Below, piece by piece: positions 46,375-57,619 of a DNA stretch of 64,000 bases. Position numbers and translations under genes: made by a program. Position 1 is the stretch's first letter. The number at the start of each line of letters is the position of its first letter. Below the pieces are notes generated by a model. The model did not search any database. It was not told the origin of the DNA and worked only from the letters and a program-made list of their open reading frames with translations. This stretch comes from Carboxylicivirga sediminis. Lineage in GTDB: Bacteria > Bacteroidota > Bacteroidia > Bacteroidales > Marinilabiliaceae. The stretch lies in contig NZ_JAGTAR010000007.1 in assembly GCF_018156225.1 (NCBI RefSeq), positions 62,001 to 126,000 of the forward strand, in the 5' to 3' direction.

Positions 46375-47346
46375 TTAAACTTCCTGATAAACAGGGATAA
46401 TCTCTTTCCCTTTAGTGGCAAAATACGCTTTAGCAGCCGAATAATTACGCGTAAACCCCAGGAAGAAACCTCCGCCGCCCGAGCCACAAAGCTTAAGGGT
46501 ATAGAGTTCTGTATTAAATCCTTCTTCCCAGAATGCCTGAATTGGCTCAGGTATCATCTCCTTAAAATAGTTAAGCTGAAAATGCGAAAGTTCTTTTAAC
46601 GACTGAAACATATCATTCAATTGCCCACTTAGCATTGTGCTGATACAGCGATTGGTGGTAGGAATCAGTTGTGTATCAATCAGCTTTTTAAAGCCTGGGT
46701 CGCTCACCTTATCCATAAACTGCTTCACCAATGGAGCTGTTTTACCGGTGGTTTCGGCATCAAGCAAAAAGATGGCATCTTCGTTGAGTATATCCTGTCG
46801 AGGAATACCCACAGATGAAATATGGTGTGCATTTTCCAGTACAATTGGGTGTTTAAGATAGCAGATAAGCGGGTCGATGCCCGAACTGGTACCATGGTAA
46901 AACGACTCAATCTGAGCAAATGCCTTTTTAAGTTCAAACAGCTCTTTGTCGCTAATGTCGGCCCTGGCTTCAATTTTGTTGTTAGCATAACTGTTATAAA
47001 GCGTGGCCACCAAGGCACCACTACTGCCCAATCCATATCCTTCTGGGATGGATGATTCAAAATATAAGCCTTTTTTCAGGTCGTTAGTCAATCGCTCTGT
47101 ATCAATATCAGCCAGTAGTACCTTTTGTTCTTTAAGCGAAACAATGTAATCGAACAGCTCCTTTAGCTGCAGATTTGAGTTTCTGGCAAAATTTAGATTG
47201 GTATAGCTATCACTGTTGATGAATCGCAGTTCCCCGTTGAAATGTGAATAGGGAATAGTGAGCCCCATTGAGCCTAGAATAATGCTGTATTCGCCAAACA
47301 GCATCACCTTTGAATAATAGATATCTTTTTTAGTTTGTTCCTGCAT
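46375..47346 (-). CDS. mvaK1: Mevalonate kinase (GHMP family)
   Basis: 323-residue ATP-dependent kinase forming 5-phosphomevalonate, or a close GHMP relative in that position of the pathway. It opens with KDIYYSKVMLFGEYSII (the GHMP N-terminal motif), has IPEGYGLGSSGALVATLY as the ATP loop and a C-terminal LKLCGSGGGGFFLGF motif 3. ATG 47346 is preferred because it follows the decarboxylase stop by 7 bp; an earlier in-frame start would overlap that gene. It is the last gene of the mevalonate operon. Confidence 0.85.
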   Translation of the reverse strand: MQEQTKKDIYYSKVMLFGEYSIILGSMGLTIPYSHFNGELRFINSDSYTNLNFARNSNLQLKELFDYIVSLKEQKVLLADIDTERLTNDLKKGLYFESSIPEGYGLGSSGALVATLYNSYANNKIEARADISDKELFELKKAFAQIESFYHGTSSGIDPLICYLKHPIVLENAHHISSVGIPRQDILNEDAIFLLDAETTGKTAPLVKQFMDKVSDPGFKKLIDTQLIPTTNRCISTMLSGQLNDMFQSLKELSHFQLNYFKEMIPEPIQAFWEEGFNTELYTLKLCGSGGGGFFLGFTRNYSAAKAYFATKGKEIIPVYQEV

Positions 47347-47353
47347 GCTTCTG

Positions 47354-48385
47354 TTAGTCAATCGAAATTTCGTCATAGATTACTTCCTGGTTGTCACAAA
47401 GCGGCCTAAGGTGTTCCTCAATAAATGGCAACAACACTTTACTCTGCGATTTAGGATAGATGAGGTGGATGTTGGGGCCTGCATCAAGGGTGTAGGTCAC
47501 TGGTACATGCTGATGTTCCCTGAATTTAACAATACGCTTAATTGCCCGCAGCGATTCCGGAGCCATCAACGTATAGCCCGGTGAAGAGCTCATCATTAAA
47601 CCGTGTAGGCTAAGGGCTTCTTCTTCACAAATCTGAGCAAAAGCTTTAAAATCACCATCTTTTATTGCTTTCAGCAGGGCGATGGTATTTTTATTGGCTT
47701 GCTCAATACGTCCGTGGCGGTAGGGGTGATGAGTCATTAGCTCGTGCCCCAATGAGCTGCTTACCGCTTTGCTGCCTTTACGTATGACCAGTATCGTGTC
47801 TTGTAAATCATTGAATGAATCATGTACCTGCTGGTTAATGCTAAGGCCATACTTGTTGGATGCCTCTGGCAGGGCTGATGTTTCACCCCATAATACCCAG
47901 CCTGACATAGTTGAACGGCAAGCACTGCCTGAGCCGAGACGAGCCATTTCGGATAGCATCTGGCGATAATCATTGAGTAGTTGTGAGGCATCTACCTGCT
48001 TCTGAATAGCCAATAAAGCTTTGGCTATGGACGCCATAGAGCTGGCCGAGGAGGCGATACCACTTGAATGGGGAAAGGTGTTGGAGCTTTCAATCTTCAA
48101 ACGTCCGCTGCTTAGAAAGGGCAGAAACGTTTTCAGTCTGTCGCTTAAGGTTTGTAATTTGGGTAAAAAGTCAGGTTTAGCTATTCCTTCAAACAGGAAC
48201 TCTATATTTAATGGAGCATCACCTGGCTGATAGGAGACCGCTGTTTTGGTTAATGCTTTTGAAAGCGTAAAGCTGATGCTTGGGTTGACCGGTTCCTGTA
48301 TACCTTTTTTTCCCCAGTATTTGACAATGGCTATATTTGATGGAGCACTGGTGGCTGACTGATAGCTTTGAGTTGATATAGACAT
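47354..48385 (-). CDS. mvaD: Diphosphomevalonate decarboxylase
   Basis: 343-residue enzyme that converts mevalonate 5-diphosphate to isopentenyl diphosphate with ATP. The near-invariant N-terminus SAPSNIAIVKYWGKK and the ATP loop FPHSSGIASSASSMASIA are present, with the later LGSGSACRS and TLDAGPNIHL motifs. ATG 48385 is chosen, as the alternative TTG 9 bp upstream would overlap the previous gene. The MvaD-specific Asp in TLDAGPN is intact. A phosphomevalonate decarboxylase activity cannot be excluded by eye. Confidence 0.9.
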   Translation of the reverse strand: MSISTQSYQSATSAPSNIAIVKYWGKKGIQEPVNPSISFTLSKALTKTAVSYQPGDAPLNIEFLFEGIAKPDFLPKLQTLSDRLKTFLPFLSSGRLKIESSNTFPHSSGIASSASSMASIAKALLAIQKQVDASQLLNDYRQMLSEMARLGSGSACRSTMSGWVLWGETSALPEASNKYGLSINQQVHDSFNDLQDTILVIRKGSKAVSSSLGHELMTHHPYRHGRIEQANKNTIALLKAIKDGDFKAFAQICEEEALSLHGLMMSSSPGYTLMAPESLRAIKRIVKFREHQHVPVTYTLDAGPNIHLIYPKSQSKVLLPFIEEHLRPLCDNQEVIYDEISID

Positions 48386-48386
48386 G

Positions 48387-49310
48387 TTACCCAATTTTTA
48401 ATTCGTTTAGTTTAAATATGGTGTTCAGGCCTTTTTCAGAAAAATAGTCTTTAACATATTTTTCAGGTTCTGTTGAAGCTACCATGATAAAATCGCCCCC
48501 CCAGGCACCCAGTGCTTTAATAAAACCACGGAAATCCTTAAAATGTTCACTTTTGATTGGTGATAATTGAACAATCTTGCTGATGTGGGCTTCATGCTCT
48601 TCCATCAAATGGCCAAACTCATATAAGTCGTTACATGCAAGCATCCTATCAGTAAGAGAGCTGATGTGTTGGATACTTTCAGGGTGTATTTCCTTTTTGT
48701 TAAAGCTGGCAATAGCTTGCTGGCTGCTTTGTTTTCGGCCCGAATAGATGAAATATATTTGTTCATGAAAATCAGGCTGAAACTTTACAGATTCGTTTTT
48801 AGGAATGCCGTTCTTTAGCTCATAGACGATAGGCGATGTTACTGTTGCACAGGCAATGTCGTAACCTGAGCCACCAAAAGTGTCTTGCAGCAGAAGGTAG
48901 GGATTAACCCCCAGCCACTGCGCCAGTAGTGATATCAATGTTGAACTGCTTCCCCATCCCCAACTTGCATTAAACTCCAGGTGAGTTGTTACCTGCTTAT
49001 TTTGTAGTAACTGTGTTATATCTTCTCGATAATCCAGACATTTACGAAGGATATCCGCCAGCCTTTGGGCCAGCAATAAATTGTCACACTCTAACACTTC
49101 TAATGATTGGTTGTAGCTGGCCTCAAACCAGCTGCCATTGACTGTACTTGCCTTCCATGTCAGAAAGTGAGTGTGATTCTCTTCAACTCTCAGGCTTTGT
49201 CCGTATTTTAAAGGTATCGCCAGTGATTTTGCACCTGCTAACACTAGGTATTCGCCGCTAATCAGCAGTTTGCCATGTGCATAGTATGACTCTGAGTTAT
49301 CCTGCACCAT
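48387..49310 (-). CDS. GYDIA-type GHMP kinase, candidate phosphomevalonate kinase
   Basis: 307-residue GHMP-fold kinase. N-terminal YYAHGKLLISGEYLVLAGAK, ATP loop NASWGWGSSSTLISLL and the GGSGYDIACA segment that names the GYDIA family of Bacteroidota. It lies between HMG-CoA reductase and the decarboxylase, where a phosphomevalonate kinase is needed and no canonical one is present. Assignment as that kinase rests on the gene position and fold only. ATG follows the reductase stop without a gap. Confidence 0.78.
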   Translation of the reverse strand: MVQDNSESYYAHGKLLISGEYLVLAGAKSLAIPLKYGQSLRVEENHTHFLTWKASTVNGSWFEASYNQSLEVLECDNLLLAQRLADILRKCLDYREDITQLLQNKQVTTHLEFNASWGWGSSSTLISLLAQWLGVNPYLLLQDTFGGSGYDIACATVTSPIVYELKNGIPKNESVKFQPDFHEQIYFIYSGRKQSSQQAIASFNKKEIHPESIQHISSLTDRMLACNDLYEFGHLMEEHEAHISKIVQLSPIKSEHFKDFRGFIKALGAWGGDFIMVASTEPEKYVKDYFSEKGLNTIFKLNELKIG

Positions 49311-50615
49311 CTATCTTCTAATCGTATTCAAAAAGTTTGCCACCATCGTGTAACTAACCACGCTATCCTTAAAATGTTTGGTAGCTGCAGCTTTTTCCGC
49401 TTCATCAGCACCAAAGGCATTAAGTATATTGCTCAGATGCAGTTTCATATGGCCTTTTTGTATGCCGGTGGTTACGAGAGATGCTACTGCAGCAAAGTTA
49501 TTGGCCATGCCGGCTGCCGCTGCCACCTGCATCAACTGTTCGGCCGATGGTTGCTGTAATATGTGCATAGCTGCTTTGGCCATTGGGTGATTGTTGGTTA
49601 ATCCGCCAACCGTACCCAATGCCAATGGCACTGTTAATGTGTATTTAAATTGTTCATCCCTCAGTTCAATGTTGGTGAGTGATGCATAGCGGCCGTTGCG
49701 CGATGCGTAGGCCTGTGCGCCGGCTTCAATGGCTCTGAAATCATTACCAGTGGCCAATACCACAGCATCAATGCCATTAAAAATACCTTTGTTGTGTGTA
49801 ACGGCCCGGTACGGATCATTCATGGCAATGTCAACTGCTGTTTTAAATCGTTTTGCAAATTCTTTCGGTGTGTAGCTGCCTGCGTAAGGTCGCAGTTGTT
49901 CAATTGAGCAGCTTATTTTACATTCAACCAAACACTCAGGGGTGTAGTTGCTCAATATGGCCATGATAACCGATGCCTCGTGTTCCTGCTTAAGTTGAGG
50001 ATGTTGGTTGATGTAGGCCATTAGCTCGGGACCGATGGTTTCGAGGCAGGTATTAATAAAATTGGCACCCATCGAATCGGCCGTTTGAAACTTAATTAGT
50101 GCCTGGTAGATATCCACTATATTTGGTACCTTTTCAAACTCAATGCCCGTTATGCCGCCACCTCGCTGTCGCATTTTAGAAGTGATGGTGGCAGTAGCAG
50201 TAAGGATTAAATCTTCTATCTCTTTCTTACGTTCATTAAGGGCATTGATATTGCCCTGCCAGTTGAAGAAGAGCTGACCATTCTTGGTGGTACTGATGAC
50301 TCTGGTTTGGAAACCACCATTTTTAGCCCAAAAACCTGCAGCTTTTGAAGCAGCAGCCACCACCGAGCTTTCCTCAATCACCATGGGCACCATATACAAT
50401 GTTTCATTTATCAGGAAGTTTGGCGCCAGGCTAAATGGTAAATAGAAATTTGAGATGATATTCTCCGAAATGTCATTAAATAAATGTTGCTGTTCAGGGT
50501 GAAGAAATGCCTCAAAGGATGCGGCAATTTCAGGTGCCAGCTGCTGTTGCTCAGCTAGCACCTTAATCTTTTCTTCCCGACTCAATTTAGAGAAACCTTT
50601 TATCAGTGATTGCAT
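49311..50615 (-). CDS. mvaA: HMG-CoA reductase, class II
   Basis: 434-residue reductase converting HMG-CoA to mevalonate. Class II features: MVIEESSVVAAAS with the catalytic Glu81/82, the substrate and nucleotide region TADSMGANFINTCLE, THNKGIFNGIDAVVLATGND with the catalytic Lys and Asp, and KGHMKLHLSNIL with the class II catalytic His near the C-terminus. Class II enzymes were first known as degradative (Pseudomonas mevalonii) but are biosynthetic in many bacteria; the neighbours make synthesis likely here. ATG 50615 lies 1 bp after the fni stop, so a further upstream frame is not used. Confidence 0.92.
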   Translation of the reverse strand: MQSLIKGFSKLSREEKIKVLAEQQQLAPEIAASFEAFLHPEQQHLFNDISENIISNFYLPFSLAPNFLINETLYMVPMVIEESSVVAAASKAAGFWAKNGGFQTRVISTTKNGQLFFNWQGNINALNERKKEIEDLILTATATITSKMRQRGGGITGIEFEKVPNIVDIYQALIKFQTADSMGANFINTCLETIGPELMAYINQHPQLKQEHEASVIMAILSNYTPECLVECKISCSIEQLRPYAGSYTPKEFAKRFKTAVDIAMNDPYRAVTHNKGIFNGIDAVVLATGNDFRAIEAGAQAYASRNGRYASLTNIELRDEQFKYTLTVPLALGTVGGLTNNHPMAKAAMHILQQPSAEQLMQVAAAAGMANNFAAVASLVTTGIQKGHMKLHLSNILNAFGADEAEKAAATKHFKDSVVSYTMVANFLNTIRR

Positions 50616-50616
50616 A

Positions 50617-51618
50617 TTACGCTTGTTTGACTTTGAGGAAATTAGTTGCCAAGCTCCAGCTTTGGTCAATCTTCTCGACAAATGCGCGCAGCTTACTGTA
50701 ATCGCCCATGGCATGACGCAGAAAAGCAGAACCCATGCCATAAAAGGCAGGTAGCTTCGAGATAGATGTCAGGTAATAACCATCCAGCACGCTTGAAATG
50801 CCACCTGATATGATGAGCTGCTTCGCCTGTATAGCTTCAAGCGGTAGTTCATCCACCAGTTTATTTACCATGTGCGTCATTTCTTCAGCTGTATGACCTA
50901 CATGTATAAAAGGATTAAACACCTCGGCAGCAACAGCATCGGAACGGTTGAGTTCTACCAGTGAGAAATTGGTGCCTCCCATGGCCGCAAACTCGATAGC
51001 TTCTATCGGCAATTGTAATAACTGTTTCAGGCTGGCATAGCCAAATCCCTGACCAACCTCTTTGACGATGATCTTCATGGTGGTGTTCTCCAGATATTCC
51101 TGAAGCAGCTCTAAAGCCGGTCGCTTTAACTGATCGCCTTCGGGCTGAAAAGCTTCCTGTAGTGGATTGATGTGTATAATCAGGCCATCGGCATCCAATT
51201 TATCAACCAGTTCAGCTAGTTTATCTGAACTGCCATCTTGCAGCATGTTTTCTAACTGGCAGATGCCTATATTGGCAAACAGCGGGGCCTCATTGCCCAT
51301 GATGGGGCGGACATTAAAATCTTCAAAGTGTTCAGGTGAGTCCAACAGGATGCGACATGAGCCCAAACCCATTCCCAAACCAAACTCGGCGCAGGCCTGA
51401 GCCAGGTTTTTGTTGATGGTGCCGGCTCGCTTGGTGCCACCCGTCATGCTTGATACCCATAATGGTAGCCGCATTTTTTTACCGGCGAAATGAAATTCCT
51501 GCTCCGTTTTATGGTGGGTACCAAACAAAGGCTCGTAATCAAAGCGGTTATCAGCATGCTTTGCTTCAAGTCGCGAGCTAAAAGCTAAATCAATATGGTC
51601 GCGTTTCCTGTCTTCCAT
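50617..51618 (-). CDS. fni: Type II isopentenyl-diphosphate isomerase (FMN)
   Basis: 333-residue FMN-dependent isomerase that interconverts IPP and DMAPP. The opening RKRDHIDLAF, the FMN site SSMTGGT, the metal-binding HINPLQEAFQPEGD and the KEVGQGFG and GGISS segments match the family. Length is usual. It sits 41 bp after the acyl-CoA dehydrogenase gene and 1 bp before HMG-CoA reductase, a clear operon member. Confidence 0.93.
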   Translation of the reverse strand: MEDRKRDHIDLAFSSRLEAKHADNRFDYEPLFGTHHKTEQEFHFAGKKMRLPLWVSSMTGGTKRAGTINKNLAQACAEFGLGMGLGSCRILLDSPEHFEDFNVRPIMGNEAPLFANIGICQLENMLQDGSSDKLAELVDKLDADGLIIHINPLQEAFQPEGDQLKRPALELLQEYLENTTMKIIVKEVGQGFGYASLKQLLQLPIEAIEFAAMGGTNFSLVELNRSDAVAAEVFNPFIHVGHTAEEMTHMVNKLVDELPLEAIQAKQLIISGGISSVLDGYYLTSISKLPAFYGMGSAFLRHAMGDYSKLRAFVEKIDQSWSLATNFLKVKQA

Positions 51619-51659
51619 TACCTGTAGTTTTGTTTAATTATGGTAAAAATAAGGTGAAC

Positions 51660-52808
51660 TTAAACCAATCCCAAATGCTTACTGATAACAATGCGCAAAA
51701 TTTCAGATGTGCCTTCACCAATTTGCAGAATACGCTGATCACGATAGAAGCGCTCAATGGCGGATGATTTTAGTAAGCCTTGTCCCGAAAAGATCTGAAC
51801 GGCTTCATCTGCAATCTCTTTGGCAATGTCGCTACAATAAAGTTTGGCCATAGCTGCTTCTTTACCAAAAGGCTGTCCGGCATCTTTTAATGCACAGGCG
51901 TTATATAACGTATTGCGTGCCAACTCAAGTTTCAGGGCCATATCAGTCAATTTGAAAGCAATTACCTGGTTGCTGGCAATTGTCTGACCAAATTGTTCGC
52001 GCTTCTGAGCATAATCCAGAGCCATTTCGTAGGCTCCCTGTGCCAATCCTAATCCCATGGCAGCAATGGATAAACGTCCTGAATCAAGCGTCTTTAGCAT
52101 TTGCCCCAGACCTTTGTCTTTTTTACCCAGAAGCTGATCTTTTTTGACCTTGATATCAGAGAATTTAAGTTCAGCCGTATCTGAGGCTCGCCACATCATT
52201 TTTCCAAAAATACGTTTAGTTTCAAATCCTTCTGAGTCTCTGTCAACCAGGATTGTTGAGAAGCGCTTCTTACCATTTTCTTCATTCGTAACGGCCAGAA
52301 CGGTAATGCCTTTCATCAGTTCATTACTGCCATTGGTAATGTATCGTTTACTGCCGTTGATTAGCCAGTGAGCACCTTTGTCTTCAGCGATTGTCTCAAC
52401 GCCCTGAGCATCGGAGCCTGCCATTACCTCTGTCAGACCAAAGGCCCAAAGTCCTTCTCCGGAAGTTAATAGGGGTACATATTTCTGGCGTTGTTCTTCG
52501 GTGCCAAAATGATATACGGGAGCCAGTCCCAGACTATTGTGAGCAGCCATAGTAGCAGCCTGCGAACTATCCACGCGAGCCAGTTCTTCAACAGCAATAA
52601 TATAAGACAGGGTGTCTTTGCCCTGTCCGCCATGTTCTTTAGGAATATCGATGCCATATAACCCTGCTTGTCCCATTTTACGGGATAACTCCACCGAAAA
52701 GGTTTCGTTTTCGTCCAGCTGGGCAGCCATTGGTTTAATCTCTTTTTCGGCAAAGGCTCTCACTTCTTGTCTAAAAGCTTCGTGTTCTTTTGTACTTAGT
52801 ATTGACAT
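51660..52808 (-). CDS. Acyl-CoA dehydrogenase (SCAD/MCAD-type active site)
   Basis: 382-residue FAD-dependent dehydrogenase that makes the 2,3-enoyl-CoA. Typical segments: LTEVMAGSDAQG, ITNGS, REQFGQ and the C-terminal QIGEGTSEILR. In short- and medium-chain enzymes the Glu of this last motif (Glu365) is the base, and it is kept here. Isovaleryl-CoA dehydrogenases instead use a Glu of an LDxERL segment and have Gly or Ala at the later site; here the segment reads LDSGRL. So a branched substrate is suggested only by context. First gene of the mevalonate operon. Confidence 0.88.
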   Translation of the reverse strand: MSILSTKEHEAFRQEVRAFAEKEIKPMAAQLDENETFSVELSRKMGQAGLYGIDIPKEHGGQGKDTLSYIIAVEELARVDSSQAATMAAHNSLGLAPVYHFGTEEQRQKYVPLLTSGEGLWAFGLTEVMAGSDAQGVETIAEDKGAHWLINGSKRYITNGSNELMKGITVLAVTNEENGKKRFSTILVDRDSEGFETKRIFGKMMWRASDTAELKFSDIKVKKDQLLGKKDKGLGQMLKTLDSGRLSIAAMGLGLAQGAYEMALDYAQKREQFGQTIASNQVIAFKLTDMALKLELARNTLYNACALKDAGQPFGKEAAMAKLYCSDIAKEIADEAVQIFSGQGLLKSSAIERFYRDQRILQIGEGTSEILRIVISKHLGLV

Positions 52809-52886
52809 GTAATTTCTTGTTATGCTTTATTTCAAATTCAGTTATGTTCTTCCATTAGTATTAAAATCGGCTAAAATTTCAATGTT

Positions 52887-53021
52887 CAACCCATTACAGG
52901 GTTGCTTGATGATTTTTCCATTATCCCCACGCTCTGCATGGGGTTATTATTATTAATGTCCTTCAGACATTTCTTTATCCCAAAGGGATTTTACTTTAAT
53001 AGCCACGGGTGTAACCCATGG
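52887..53021. repeat. Five-hairpin array between mccA and the dehydrogenase
   Basis: Stem-loops in order: CAACCC/GGGTTG (52887-52904), CCCCACGC/GCATGGGG (52925-52943), AATGTC/GACATT (52955-52971), ATCCC/GGGAT (52977-52989) and CCACGGGT/ACCCATGG (53003-53021). Spacers are short and several loops are of three bases. The array takes up most of the 270-bp gap. It may be a processing, termination or mobile extragenic repeat and could separate the two halves of the gene block. Confidence 0.65.
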
Positions 53022-53078
53022 AATATAAACACATCACCAACAAAACCCCGGAGTGGATTCAATTGTTAATGCGCATTA

Positions 53079-55013
53079 TTATTCGTCAGCTTTGTAGGCC
53101 AGTAGGTTCTGATTGAACTTTACCTGCTGTCCTGCGCTGATATGTACTTTATCGATGATGCCATCTTTCCAGGCTTTAATATGGTTTTCTGTTTTCATGG
53201 CCTCAAGCACCAGTAGCAAATCGCCTTTTTTCACCTCTTGACCTTCATCTACATGCACTTTCATTACCTGTGATGGGATAGGAGCCAGGTAATGATCGCC
53301 ATTTAAGGTTGTCTCTCCATTACTTTCAGGATGGTAGTCCGGTAGCCAGTCATGGGCTTTAATGCTTACCCATTGTTGATGATGATTGATGAGCACATTA
53401 TCCGCTTCCTCAAAGCAATAGAAGTGATAATCCTCACGATCAAGCTGAAAGTTAAGCTGATGATTGTCTAATATGCAGTTTTTTAGCTGGAAAAATTCTT
53501 GATTGAGTTGAATGTTAAGGTCATTATCAATCAGATTGACTTCGCTCAGGTAGCGATTTTCGTTGATACTGAAAGTAAACAGCGGCAATTGTCGCCAAAA
53601 ATGGCCTTGTTGTCGTAGGATGCGGTAGGCTGTATAAGCTAAACTGATGAGGTCATCATTATCAGCTGTAGTTTTCAGTAATTCTGCCAGATGCTCATCA
53701 CAGAAACGGGTGTGTAAACTCGAATCTGTAAAAGCCTGATGTTGCAGCAGGGTGTTCAGGAAACCGGCATTGGTGGAAATACCCTGAATAATTAAATTAT
53801 CATTTGCGTGTATTGCTTTTTGTATAGAAGTCGCCCTGTCTTTTGCATGCACAACCAGTTTGGCAATCATCGGATCAAACTGTGAATGTATCTCACCTGG
53901 TTGATTAAAACCTATCTCCAGTCGTGCGGAATTGGGATCAGGAAGCAATAGATTCTTTATTACTCCAGGGCTCGGTCTGAAATTGTTGGTCACATCTTCG
54001 GCACAAACACGCAATTCGATGGCATGACCATTAATAGCCAGGTCATTCTGGTTGAAGTCAAGAGTTAATCCATTGGCGATTTTAAACTGCCATTGAACTA
54101 AATCTACACCTGTGATTTCTTCTGTTACGCAGTGTTCAACCTGAATGCGTGTGTTCATTTCCAGAAAATAATGCTGCCCCTCATCATCCACTAAAAATTC
54201 AATAGTACCGGCATTGGTGTAGTTAATGGAGCGACAAAGTCGCAGGGCATCATTGTATAAACGTTGTTTTATGTCATCAGAAAGATGTGCAGCAGGTGCT
54301 TCTTCTATTATCTTCTGGAAGCGACGCTGTACCGAGCATTCTCTATCAAACAGGTGAACTTTGTTGCCATGCTTGTCAGCCAGCACTTGTACTTCAATGT
54401 GCCGTGCTTTTTGAATGTATTGCTCAACATAGAGACGTTCATCGCCAAAGTAGCGCAAGGCCTGCTTACTTAAAATGGGCAGGTGTTCGAGCAGCTCGTT
54501 TTTATTATGACATATTTGCATGCCTTTGCCACCACCCCCCATGGCAGCTTTAACAAGTACCGGGTAGGGCAGGGCATCTGCTTCAGCCAAAATAGTTTGC
54601 AGAGAACCTTCCCACGATTTGGTAAGTGATACATTGGCCTGTTGCGCAATGCTTCGGGCTACTTGTTTATCGCCCATCAGTTTGAGATTATTCGCTGATG
54701 GCCCTACGAATGTAATATCGGCCTTTTGGCAAGCCTCTGCCAGGTGTTGATTCTCCGACAAGAAACCATAACCCGGGTGTATACAGTCAGCTTTATACTG
54801 TCTGGCAATATCAATAATGCCTTCAATATTCAGGTAATTCTCTTCGAATGGTCCATCTGCAAATAGATGCACTTCGTCACTTAGCTGTGCCGGTAGTGTA
54901 TCTTTTTCAAGTTCAGAGAGTGTGACAACCGTTTTCAAACCCAACTGATGCGCTGCCCTTATTATTCTGGCAGCAATTTCTCCTCTGTTTGGTATCAGTA
55001 CTTTCCTCATCAT
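53079..55013 (-). CDS. mccA: Methylcrotonyl-CoA carboxylase alpha (biotin carboxylase/carrier) subunit
   Basis: 644-residue biotin-dependent subunit. The biotin carboxylase domain is N-terminal (VLIPNRGEIAARIIRAA; ATP-grasp loop KAAMGGGGKGMQI; VEHCVTEEITGVDL) and a BCCP domain is C-terminal with the biotin site EAMKTEN (Lys607). Length suits MccA/PccA-type subunits rather than AccC. The neighbouring beta subunit and hydratase favour 3-methylcrotonyl-CoA. The start is MM; both ATGs (55013, 55010) are possible, 6 bp after the hydratase stop. Confidence 0.88.
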   Translation of the reverse strand: MMRKVLIPNRGEIAARIIRAAHQLGLKTVVTLSELEKDTLPAQLSDEVHLFADGPFEENYLNIEGIIDIARQYKADCIHPGYGFLSENQHLAEACQKADITFVGPSANNLKLMGDKQVARSIAQQANVSLTKSWEGSLQTILAEADALPYPVLVKAAMGGGGKGMQICHNKNELLEHLPILSKQALRYFGDERLYVEQYIQKARHIEVQVLADKHGNKVHLFDRECSVQRRFQKIIEEAPAAHLSDDIKQRLYNDALRLCRSINYTNAGTIEFLVDDEGQHYFLEMNTRIQVEHCVTEEITGVDLVQWQFKIANGLTLDFNQNDLAINGHAIELRVCAEDVTNNFRPSPGVIKNLLLPDPNSARLEIGFNQPGEIHSQFDPMIAKLVVHAKDRATSIQKAIHANDNLIIQGISTNAGFLNTLLQHQAFTDSSLHTRFCDEHLAELLKTTADNDDLISLAYTAYRILRQQGHFWRQLPLFTFSINENRYLSEVNLIDNDLNIQLNQEFFQLKNCILDNHQLNFQLDREDYHFYCFEEADNVLINHHQQWVSIKAHDWLPDYHPESNGETTLNGDHYLAPIPSQVMKVHVDEGQEVKKGDLLLVLEAMKTENHIKAWKDGIIDKVHISAGQQVKFNQNLLAYKADE

Positions 55014-55019
55014 TCTTTC

Positions 55020-55820
55020 CTATTTATTCCATTCAGCCAGGCGCTTTTCAAAAAATGCTTTTACGCCTTCTACACCTTCAGCACTGCTGCGTGCTTCAGC
55101 AATGGCACTGGTACATGTTTCTTTATTTTGAGATAGGCTGACTTGACTCATTTGATTAATAAGCTGTTTGGTTGTTGCCATGGCTTGTGGTCCGTTCCCT
55201 TTAAAGGCTTCACATAGCTCATCAATACGGGCTGGTATGTCTTTGCTGGCCATAATTTCGTGTACAAGACCAATCTGACGTGCTTTTTTTGCCGTAAAGG
55301 ACGCTGCACTTAACATGAGCGCTCTGGCATGAGAGTTACCAATTTTGTTTATCACAAAAGGAGCGATGGTGGCCGGCACCAATCCAAGCTTAACTTCAGA
55401 AAATGCCATGCGGGCATCTTTATCAGACACTACATAGTCGGCAGTGGCCAATAAGCCCAATGCTCCGCCCATGGCATACCTTTCTACCCAGATAATGACT
55501 GGCTTTGGAAAGTTATTGAGCAGTTCAAAAGCCTCATAAAACAAGTTGGCATCAGCCAGGTTTTGCTCTTTAGTTTGGTTTAAACCTTCCTGCATCCATT
55601 GTAAATCGGCTCCTGAACTGAATACGCCTTCCGCTCCTCTGATAACAACTACCTTTTGCCGCTCATCGTCCTTTATCTTATTGAGGGCTTTTATGAGGCA
55701 TGACAGCATACCTTTAGAAAGTGCATTTCGTTTGGTAGGATCGTTCAATAATAAACGACTGATGCCATTGGATTGATTCAGCTCTACAAGCGGTTTAATA
55801 CTACATTCTAAAGACGCCAT
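55020..55820 (-). CDS. liuC: Enoyl-CoA hydratase, methylglutaconyl-CoA hydratase-like
   Basis: 266-residue crotonase-fold enzyme. [11 protein letters not shown] and the stretch [18 protein letters not shown] are characteristic of 3-methylglutaconyl-CoA hydratases (LiuC type). These hydrate 3-methylglutaconyl-CoA to HMG-CoA in leucine breakdown. The gene overlaps the end of mccB by 20 bp and is followed by mccA after 6 bp, so all three are one translation unit. Other crotonases could have similar motifs; context raises confidence. Confidence 0.82.
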
Positions 55821-57402
55821 ATTTTGTGTTTTGTGATTCGTTGTTATGAATAATCTCTAATACCAGGCTTGCAATGGAGCGCGTGGAGTCAGGCGTGATG
55901 ATGCCATCATCCCACAAACGACTGGTACTGTAATAAGGTGAGCCTTCCTCTTCGTATTTTTTTAGGATGGATGCCTCAATTTTTCCCAGTTCTGCTTCAT
56001 CAACAACCGTGTTTTGTGCTGCTGCCTGGTCACGTTTAAGGGTGGTTAATACTTGTGCCGCTTGTTTGGCACCCATCACGGAAATACGGGCATTGGGCCA
56101 CATAAATAGAAAGCGAGGATCGTAAGCACGCCCAGCCATGGCATAGTTGCCGGCCCCGTATGAGCCGCCCATAATAATGGTAAAGTAAGGCACGGTTGAA
56201 TTAGCCAGAGCATTCACCATCTTGGCGCCATCTTTGGCAATGCCACCATGTTCATAATCTTTACCTACCATGAAGCCGGTAATGTTTTGCAGAAATAGCA
56301 TGGGAATACCACGCTCATTGCACAACTGGATAAAGTGTGTACCCTTCAATGCCGACTCTGAAAAGAGAATACCATTATTGGCCAAAATGCCGACTTGTTT
56401 ACCTTCAATTCTGGCAAATACTGTGACTAGTGTAGTGCCATAGTCACTTTTAAATTCATGAAATTCACTGTTGTCAACCAGGCGGGCAATTATTTCACGC
56501 ACATCGGGGAACGGTTTACCTGTTTCGGGGATCAGTCCACTTAATTCATTAACAGGGTTGCTTGGTTCTTGATTATCTTCTGATGTAATTGCTGGTTGCT
56601 TTGGCAAGGTTTCGATGATGTTACGGCAAATATGAATAGCATGCTCATCGTTATCGGCCAGATGATCGGCAACACCCGAAATCTGCGTGTGCACAGCGCC
56701 GCCTCCTAACTCTTCCGCACTCACCACCTCGCCGGTTGCTGCCTTTACCAATGGAGGACCTGCTAAAAATATAGTTCCTTGCTCCTTAACAATAATTGTT
56801 TCATCGCTCATGGCTGGCACATAGGCGCCACCAGCTGTGCACGAACCCATTACGATGGCAATTTGCGCGATGCCTTTGGCCGAAAGTCTTGATTGGTTGA
56901 AAAAGATACGACCAAAATCATCCCTGTCGGGAAATACCTCAGCCTGGTTAGGCAAAAATACGCCTCCACTGTCCACCATATATATACAAGGCAGTTGATT
57001 TTGCAGTGCAATTTCCTGTGCCCGAAGATGTTTTTTTATCGTTTCGGCAATATACGTACCTCCTTTTACGGTGGCATCGTTGGCCACAATCATTACCTGC
57101 CGGCCATGCACCTGTCCAATGCCGGTAACAATGCCCGCTGATGGAAATGCATCGTTGTACTGGCCATTAGCAGCCAGGGCTGATAATTCCAAAAAGTACG
57201 AATCTTTATCGAGCAGGTAATCGATACGCTGACGGACGCTTAGTTTACCTTTTTGCATGTGCTTTTGCATGGCTTTGAAACCACCACCTTCATAAACTTT
57301 TCGTAGTTTTTGATGGTACTCTTCAGCCAACAGCTTGTTTAACTTTTGGTTGTTGACAAACTCCAGTGAATCGGTATCTATAGTCGTTTTATACTTAAAC
57401 AT
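55801..57402 (-). CDS. mccB: Methylcrotonyl-CoA carboxylase beta (carboxyltransferase) subunit
   Basis: 533-residue carboxyltransferase with the two crotonase-like halves. MccB markers are [37 protein letters not shown] and [19 protein letters not shown] followed by [20 protein letters not shown]. With MccA it carboxylates 3-methylcrotonyl-CoA to 3-methylglutaconyl-CoA. Length is typical. It is the first gene of the leucine-side operon, behind a region with three TAGCTGA half-sites, and its last 20 bp overlap the hydratase gene. Confidence 0.92.
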
Positions 57403-57570: not shown

Positions 57571-57598
57571 AAAAAAGTCCGGCCGAAGCCAGACTTTT
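57571..57598 (-). terminator. Rho-independent terminator of lolA
   Basis: On the minus strand AAAAGTCTGGC-TTCG-GCCGGACTTTT with a UUCG-type loop, followed by TT. It separates lolA/ftsK from the mcc operon. Confidence 0.85.
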
Positions 57599-57619
57599 CA
57601 CCTGAATATTTCTGTTTGG

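Follow-up and report, generated by a model that had tools for sequence, protein, structure and literature searches.

We analyzed a 64,000-nucleotide stretch of the Carboxylicivirga sediminis genome (contig NZ_JAGTAR010000007.1, positions 62,001 to 126,000; hereafter, the window), in which nine open reading frames (ORFs), all on the minus strand, fill positions 46375-57402 according to the window's ORF list. The block reads mccB, a crotonase-family hydratase gene, mccA, an acyl-CoA dehydrogenase gene (acd), fni, and the genes for 3-hydroxy-3-methylglutaryl-CoA (HMG-CoA) reductase (HMGR), a GYDIA kinase, diphosphomevalonate decarboxylase (MDD), and mevalonate kinase (MK). An earlier, sequence-only reading of the window had claimed this order; the ORF positions confirm it, and domain scans back each name. 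Neighboring genes overlap or are separated by no more than about 40 nt, except that 270 nt separate mccA from the dehydrogenase gene.

55801..57402, minus strand: mccB, the first gene, methylcrotonyl-CoA carboxylase carboxyltransferase subunit (PF01039, E 7e-152)
55020..55820, minus strand: methylglutaconyl-CoA hydratase-like protein of the crotonase family (ECH_1, E 7e-45)
53079..55013, minus strand: mccA, biotin carboxylase and biotin carrier domain with an EAMK motif (PF00289, PF02786, PF02785, PF00364)
51660..52808, minus strand: acyl-CoA dehydrogenase of the short-chain type, proposed isovaleryl-CoA dehydrogenase (domain scan)
50617..51618, minus strand: fni, type 2 isopentenyl-diphosphate isomerase (IDI-2; TIGR02151, 196 bits, below the cut-off of 281)
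49311..50615, minus strand: class II-like HMG-CoA reductase (PF00368, E 2e-83)
48387..49310, minus strand: GYDIA-family GHMP kinase, proposed phosphomevalonate kinase (NF040656, 359 bits, cut-off 225)
47354..48394, minus strand: diphosphomevalonate decarboxylase (TIGR01240, 171.3 bits at a cut-off of 171.35; MVD-like_N, MDD_C)
46375..47376, minus strand: divergent mevalonate kinase (TIGR00549, 65 bits, below the cut-off of 163; GHMP_kinases_N; position conserved)

The core of the liu pathway of leucine breakdown, namely both subunits (alpha and beta) of methylcrotonyl-CoA carboxylase (MCC), a hydratase, and an acyl-CoA dehydrogenase of presumed substrate, is complete in the block. Against PDB chains labeled methylcrotonyl-CoA carboxylase beta, MccB scored 575-673 bits; geranyl-CoA carboxylase gave 434 bits. 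Two high-scoring chains, 4q0g (690 bits) and 9tps (666 bits), bear the depositor names acetyl/propionyl or propionyl carboxylase, and the remaining propionyl-CoA carboxylases reached at most 272 bits. The [ED].MK motif of MccA is present in 24 of 24 copies from loci that join the two halves of the block (linked copies). For the hydratase, the top NCBIfam models were PRK07468 and PRK05674 (gamma-carboxygeranoyl-CoA hydratase), both under cut-off, and one of its three PDB matches at E <= 1e-35 is an isohexenylglutaconyl-CoA hydratase; these matched enzymes would catalyze the same type of reaction as the HMG-CoA formation proposed here. The dehydrogenase carries its Glu in QIGEGTS, the short-chain position, a motif also found in 59 of the 70 relatives scanned. 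Since relatives such as L226 and L227 place the same gene between mccA and a lyase-family gene, we take the cluster protein to be the isovaleryl-CoA dehydrogenase.

Each of the five steps from HMG-CoA to isopentenyl diphosphate (IPP) and dimethylallyl diphosphate (DMAPP) has a candidate gene in the block, which includes the canonical mevalonate set of HMGR, MK, phosphomevalonate kinase (PMK), and MDD, with the GYDIA kinase as PMK and an MK that scores below its curated cut-off. Fni matched IDI-2 in the PDB (E 1.5e-31) and conserves NPLQE. HMGR starts at 50615, directly past the fni stop codon (the mechanical ORF call gave 50741), and its residues E83, K278, D294, and H391 (alignment numbering), which we take to be catalytic, are invariant among 14 aligned linked copies. 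The GYDIA kinase matched PDB sequences weakly, the matches being to mevalonate kinases (E 0.002), and its AlphaFold model (pLDDT 94.3) has a GHMP-kinase fold with structure matches at a TM of about 0.65 to mevalonate kinases and others. Because this fold cannot separate mevalonate kinase from phosphomevalonate kinase, we propose the PMK role by elimination and position. Pfam gave no match for the GYDIA kinase or Fni. A loosened motif scan of the linked copies missed 2 of 24 for fni NP.QE, 7 of 24 for a longer fni pattern, 5 of 23 for a hydratase pattern, and 2 of 23 for a kinase pattern; a second hydratase pattern was ill-made and matched 0 of 23, the window copy included.

Genes for every step from isovaleryl-CoA to IPP are thereby found within 46375-57402, those for the dehydrogenase and the GYDIA kinase by their presumed specificities. 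We propose, with a probability of roughly 80%, that the block is one metabolic unit leading from isovaleryl-CoA, derived from leucine or its keto acid, to IPP and DMAPP. The dehydrogenase would convert isovaleryl-CoA to 3-methylcrotonyl-CoA, which MccA and MccB would carboxylate to 3-methylglutaconyl-CoA and the hydratase would turn into HMG-CoA; HMGR, MK, the GYDIA kinase (as PMK), and MDD would carry HMG-CoA on to IPP, and Fni would convert IPP to DMAPP. In this scheme the MCC route would stand in for HMG-CoA synthase as the source of HMG-CoA, and the mevalonate genes would stand in for HMG-CoA lyase as its sink. On the known chemistry of these enzymes, MDD takes off the very carboxyl group that MCC puts on, and IPP would thus consist of the five carbons of isovaleryl-CoA. 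The observed basis of the proposal is gene content, gene order, conservation, and the absence, by profile, of genes for HMG-CoA synthase (mvaS) and HMG-CoA lyase (HMGL); from this we infer the enzyme specificities, the direction of flux, and a supply of isoprenoids beside the methylerythritol phosphate (MEP) pathway in the window strain.

Synthase, lyase, and linkage across the order

The sequence-only reading had found both mvaS and HMGL missing from the window and had suggested searching the whole genome for them. The genome (5.8 Mb in 133 contigs; completeness 100, contamination 3.16) yielded neither gene with the profiles PF01154, A2, PF00682, and NF004283, which extends the absence, by profile, beyond the window. 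PF01154 alone proved too weak a test: Bacteroidota synthases, found with it in 5 of 18 genomes, scored no more than 70-82 bits. A2 is a profile built from five Bacteroidota synthases, one of which proved to be an HMG-CoA synthase on comparison with the PDB and NCBIfam, and it recovers near-full-length synthases in its five row genomes and in one independent genome (L149). Neither PF01154 nor A2 found a synthase in the window genome. In the lyase searches, PF00682 matched two LeuA-like ORFs of 517-543 aa and, partially, an ORF of 640 aa, and the best NF004283 score was 64 bits, in a 517-aa ORF.

We surveyed an even sample of 198 genomes of the order, with thresholds of E 0.001 for PF01154, 1e-10 for A2, E 1e-80 for MccB, and 80 bits (our own choice) for HMGL. 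HMGR (PF00368) was present in 60 genomes, MccB in 86 (including G064, at 35% identity), ispG of the MEP pathway in 188, and HMGL in 54, none of which reaches the curated 246 bits. MccB accompanied HMGR in 56 of the 60 HMGR-positive genomes (Fisher 2e-22, kinship ignored), and mvaS was found in none of the 60 by PF01154 or A2. The three genomes with synthase matches (G012, G047, and G192) all lack HMGR, and their A2 matches are weak and, as we read them, archaeal-type; the G012 protein (349 aa; L004 1498-2547), which comes after an ORF whose end resembles a biotin carrier, we take to be a synthase-like protein of the archaeal type. HMGL was present in 25 of 30 genomes with MccB and no HMGR (G064 included), versus 28 of 56 with both.

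We fetched 60 HMGR loci from 58 of the 59 other HMGR-positive genomes of the order (G128 was left out), and 10 other genomes hold the complete nine-gene set in the same order and on one strand. Five further loci show partial linkage: L044 is without mccB and the hydratase gene (at a contig edge), L080 without these two and fni, L077 without an mccA match, and L074 and L083 without a mevalonate kinase match. Including the window, 16 linked genomes are spread over 12 family codes. Among loci from GTDB species genomes, 9 of 80 have the nine genes in order, including two from Carboxylicivirga and others from Marinilabilia salmonicolor, Thermophagus xiamenensis, Breznakibacter, Sunxiuqinia, and Tangfeifania, and 5 more are partial; this set overlaps the order sample, at least one locus (L106) belonging to both. 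Given that the nine-gene order recurs in 10 genomes of the order and in 9 of 80 GTDB loci, chance is excluded as its cause.

Linkage also went together with the absence of the lyase, HMGL being present in 0 of 16 linked genomes versus 28 of 40 unlinked genomes with HMGR and MccB (Fisher 1.5e-6), where some of the 40 are unlinked only within contig reach and some carry another HMGR type. On an HMGR tree of 50 proteins, from which 10 HMGR-positive genomes with another HMGR type or fragments were dropped, linkage requires five changes, and about 2 of 3 independent pairs were concordant and none opposed. The idea that leucine carbon enters isoprenoids, first put forward from the window's letters, gains support from conserved gene order and from co-occurrence across the order, both of them genomic arguments.

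Other HMGR arrangements were also recorded. Seven genomes (G010, G123, G124, G128, G157, G167, and G174) carry HMGR in open frames of about 745-800 aa, far exceeding the cluster type, and a second high-scoring HMGR type (> 400 bits) occurs in G016, G032, G035, G038, G056, G084, G146, and G163. At two Ancylomarina loci (L109 and L110), the dehydrogenase gene is joined to fni-HMGR-GYDIA-MDD-MK with no adjoining mcc genes; the MccB of the L109 genome lies on another contig.

Beyond the order sample, genomes of unstated completeness were searched for the synthase (by A2) and for MccB. A2 found a synthase in 6 of 31 named-record genomes: the Flavobacterium of L159, L165, and L168, Apibacter, Flavilitoribacter, and L149. 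Five of these supplied the rows of A2, leaving L149 as the independent positive. By A2, no synthase was found in Maribacter, Muricauda, Winogradskyella, Saprospira grandis, Fluviicola, Ancylomarina, Plebeiobacterium, Marinilabilia, Thermophagus, or two Carboxylicivirga. MccB was present in 33 of 34 named-record HMGR-positive genomes, the sole exception being Apibacter, which has a synthase, and among 21 genomes tested for both, MccB was present in all 15 without a synthase (the L154 match being partial). Four loci titled Bacteriovoracaceae, Halobacteriovoraceae, Oligoflexia, or Bdellovibrionota (L112, L122, L132, and L154) also contain a fni-HMGR-GYDIA-MDD-MK block; in three of them (L122, L132, and L154) A2 found no synthase and MccB is present, with one match partial.

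Fate of HMG-CoA and the MEP pathway

The neighborhoods of MccB, which cover 85 of the 86 MccB-positive genomes (not G064), comprise the linked loci and 71 further mcc loci. A lyase-family gene occurs in 26 of these 71; at 14 loci no other identified gene comes between it and a preceding same-strand mccB-hydratase-mccA-acd set (or its recognized part). In the window, fni-HMGR-GYDIA-MDD-MK fills this same slot, an exchange that reads as a switch in the consumer of HMG-CoA. Six relatives (L211, L212, L216, L218, L219, and L228) have an AtuA-family gene inside or after the mcc genes, an assignment checked on L212 (PF07287), which is possibly a third way to use HMG-CoA; the remaining mcc loci have neither a lyase-family nor an AtuA-family gene within reach. 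We dropped the absence of HMGL alone as a marker of the leucine-to-mevalonate route, given AtuA in six unlinked genomes, one of them HMGR-negative.

Several observations weigh against the block being a single leucine-to-isoprenoid unit. The step from the keto acid to isovaleryl-CoA is presumed, our gene search having covered the route from isovaleryl-CoA onward. The motif GAGTSE, which we read as that of isovaleryl-type dehydrogenases, is absent from all five matches to the cluster dehydrogenase in its own genome (the protein itself, one short-chain-like ORF, and three sites that fall within two longer ORFs), and no classical isovaleryl-CoA dehydrogenase is found among these matches. Several block proteins fall under NCBIfam equivalog cut-offs (Fni at 196/281, MK at 65/163, and HMGR at 254.5/260). 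Four HMGR-positive genomes (G040, G123, G128, and G157) have no MccB. The Fisher tests ignore kinship, and with kinship counted the association of linkage with lyase absence is not significant, there being too few pairs.

Two further points of this kind also favor the alternative that the halves are mere neighbors, with an unrecognized lyase (e.g., of the AtuA type) ending leucine breakdown at acetoacetate and a non-homologous HMG-CoA synthase feeding the mevalonate genes. One is the presence of AtuA in the mcc locus of six relatives, when the AtuA search of the strain's own genome covered the window. The other is G143, from the window's own family, where HMGR and MccB lie 46 kb apart on one contig and HMGL is absent too (a second family member, G029, has neither HMGR nor MccB). 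A profile absence, moreover, cannot exclude unknown enzymes. However, neither the window nor any of the linked loci that were fetched matched HMGL or AtuA, the linkage spans 12 family codes, and the synthase went unfound in all 60 HMGR-positive genomes of the order. We consider mere neighborhood improbable.

The unit could also run in reverse, the class II reductase oxidizing mevalonate to HMG-CoA, which dehydration and decarboxylation would turn into isovaleryl-CoA for iso-fatty acids, as in the alternative route of myxobacteria. The best NCBIfam model for HMGR is indeed a degradative one (TIGR00532), and myxobacteria do derive isovaleryl-CoA from HMG-CoA, according to excerpts of PMC9548883. 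Against this, three GHMP-family enzymes and Fni, all IPP-directed, belong to the same unit, and no mvaS was found that would make HMG-CoA from acetyl-CoA. MCC-type carboxylases, furthermore, work in the carboxylating direction. Reverse operation therefore strikes us as very improbable.

The window genome contains ispG, the sole MEP gene searched, and MEP may supply most or all of its isoprenoids, a further point against the leucine-to-isoprenoid reading. Since ispG is present, the leucine route is probably additional to MEP in this strain; oxygen damage to the iron-sulfur enzymes of MEP is our guess at a reason for keeping both. It is quite possible, if somewhat short of probable, that MEP makes most isoprenoids here, as ispG in this genome and in 188 of 198 genomes of the order would allow, and that the block serves as an auxiliary route dependent on stress or oxygen, or disposes of excess isovaleryl-CoA. 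Such a division of labor is compatible with the leucine-to-isoprenoid unit and touches its physiology only. Moreover, 7 of the 10 ispG-negative genomes keep HMGR and MccB, and in those genomes at least the block's route may have a main role.

These seven, all without a synthase, are G038, G046, G101, G131, G156, G163, and G164 (98, 94, 99, 82, 76, 91, and 82% complete, respectively; four of them at least 90%), and in them leucine could be the only source of isoprenoids. G046 and G156, which share a genus, agree in the pattern. The loss of ispG in G131 may reflect incompleteness, its genus-mate G014 having ispG. The remaining ispG-negative genomes (G054, G095, and G150) have neither HMGR nor MccB.

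Signals and insert around the block

Two further features were recorded in the noncoding DNA within and beside the block.

52809..53078, no strand: intergenic gap with a palindrome-rich insert of ~220 bp (comparison with C. mesophila)
57572..57599, minus strand: terminator-like hairpin of 12 pairs with a T tract (consensus match only)

In C. mesophila (L104; proteins 89-98% identical), mccA and the dehydrogenase gene are only about 50 nt apart and the palindrome-rich sequence is absent, which is why we regard the extra ~220 bp as an insert in the window strain. There is no second copy within the window, and we presume that it may be a REP-like (repetitive extragenic palindromic) element. The hairpin lies between mccB and the upstream lolA-like gene, with the lolA-like and ftsK genes on its far side, and would make the block its own transcription unit. 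The terminator scan ran above chance (21 found versus 12.5 expected) and the promoter scan at chance level (22 found versus 25 expected); no Bacteroidota -7 motif occurred in the three intergenic stretches scanned.

Relation to known systems

Pseudomonas-type liu operons comprise isovaleryl-CoA dehydrogenase, MCC, hydratase, and HMG-CoA lyase genes. The block resembles them in grouping the dehydrogenase, MccB, hydratase, and MccA genes, but no lyase was found and it carries fni-HMGR-GYDIA-MDD-MK after acd instead. It likewise shares HMGR, MK, a PMK-type kinase, MDD, and IDI-2 with canonical bacterial mevalonate operons, yet it has leucine-breakdown genes in place of a synthase, which is absent from the block and, by profile, from the genome. 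The trypanosomatid leucine-to-sterol system is eukaryotic and is not known to have an operon. Leucine contributes to sterols in Trypanosoma brucei, as the available portion of PMC5993337 describes, and trypanosomatid sterols resemble the block's proposed products in drawing on this source.

A labeling precedent exists in myxobacteria (Myxococcus, Stigmatella, and Vitiosangium), whose leucine-linked isoprenoid synthesis is known from feeding data. Going by partial texts, dimethylacrylate label entered sesquiterpene nucleosides and acetate label did not (PMC7321100), and deuterated leucine and dimethylacrylate were fed to trace geosmin (PMC8949605). Myxococcus xanthus differs in having MvaS, as a crystal-structure paper's title indicates, and its aib genes let it convert HMG-CoA back into isovaleryl-CoA, in the excerpted account of PMC9548883; the window genome yielded no mvaS and carries the two halves in a single block. 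The sequence-only reading had known of no bacterial cluster built like this one. That holds for the operon, since our literature search, thin on subscription journals, returned no report of it or of leucine-fed mevalonate synthesis in Bacteroidota; the chemistry, by contrast, has its precedent in the myxobacterial feeding work.

Textbook mevalonate synthesis starts from acetyl-CoA and HMG-CoA synthase. According to a passage in PMC9636800, the mevalonate pathway is independent of branched-chain amino acid breakdown because it possesses an HMG-CoA synthase of its own; our results suggest that the present genomes are exceptions. Excerpts of the review PMC13001223 indicate that a considerable subset of Bacteroidota has only the mevalonate pathway and that HMG-CoA synthase is missing from the majority of Legionella species, a gap similar to the present one; leucine goes unmentioned in the review's main text. 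We give about even odds to the wider proposal that a large part of Bacteroidota runs a mevalonate pathway without the acetyl-CoA start, with leucine or isovaleryl-CoA as the source of all isoprenoids in synthase-less HMGR genomes, several of them without ispG. MDD would there remove the CO2 that MCC had added, and the nine-gene operon would be the fused form of the route.

For C. sediminis itself, the block suggests a direct conversion of leucine carbon into building blocks of membranes and pigments. An operon beginning at isovaleryl-CoA would account for mevalonate genes in genomes apparently devoid of the first committed step, and engineering would gain a supply of HMG-CoA that brings five carbons intact into IPP. 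Branched fatty acids and isoprenoids would draw on one shared precursor, isovaleryl-CoA, and some bacteria would require leucine or its keto acid for their quinones and pigments.

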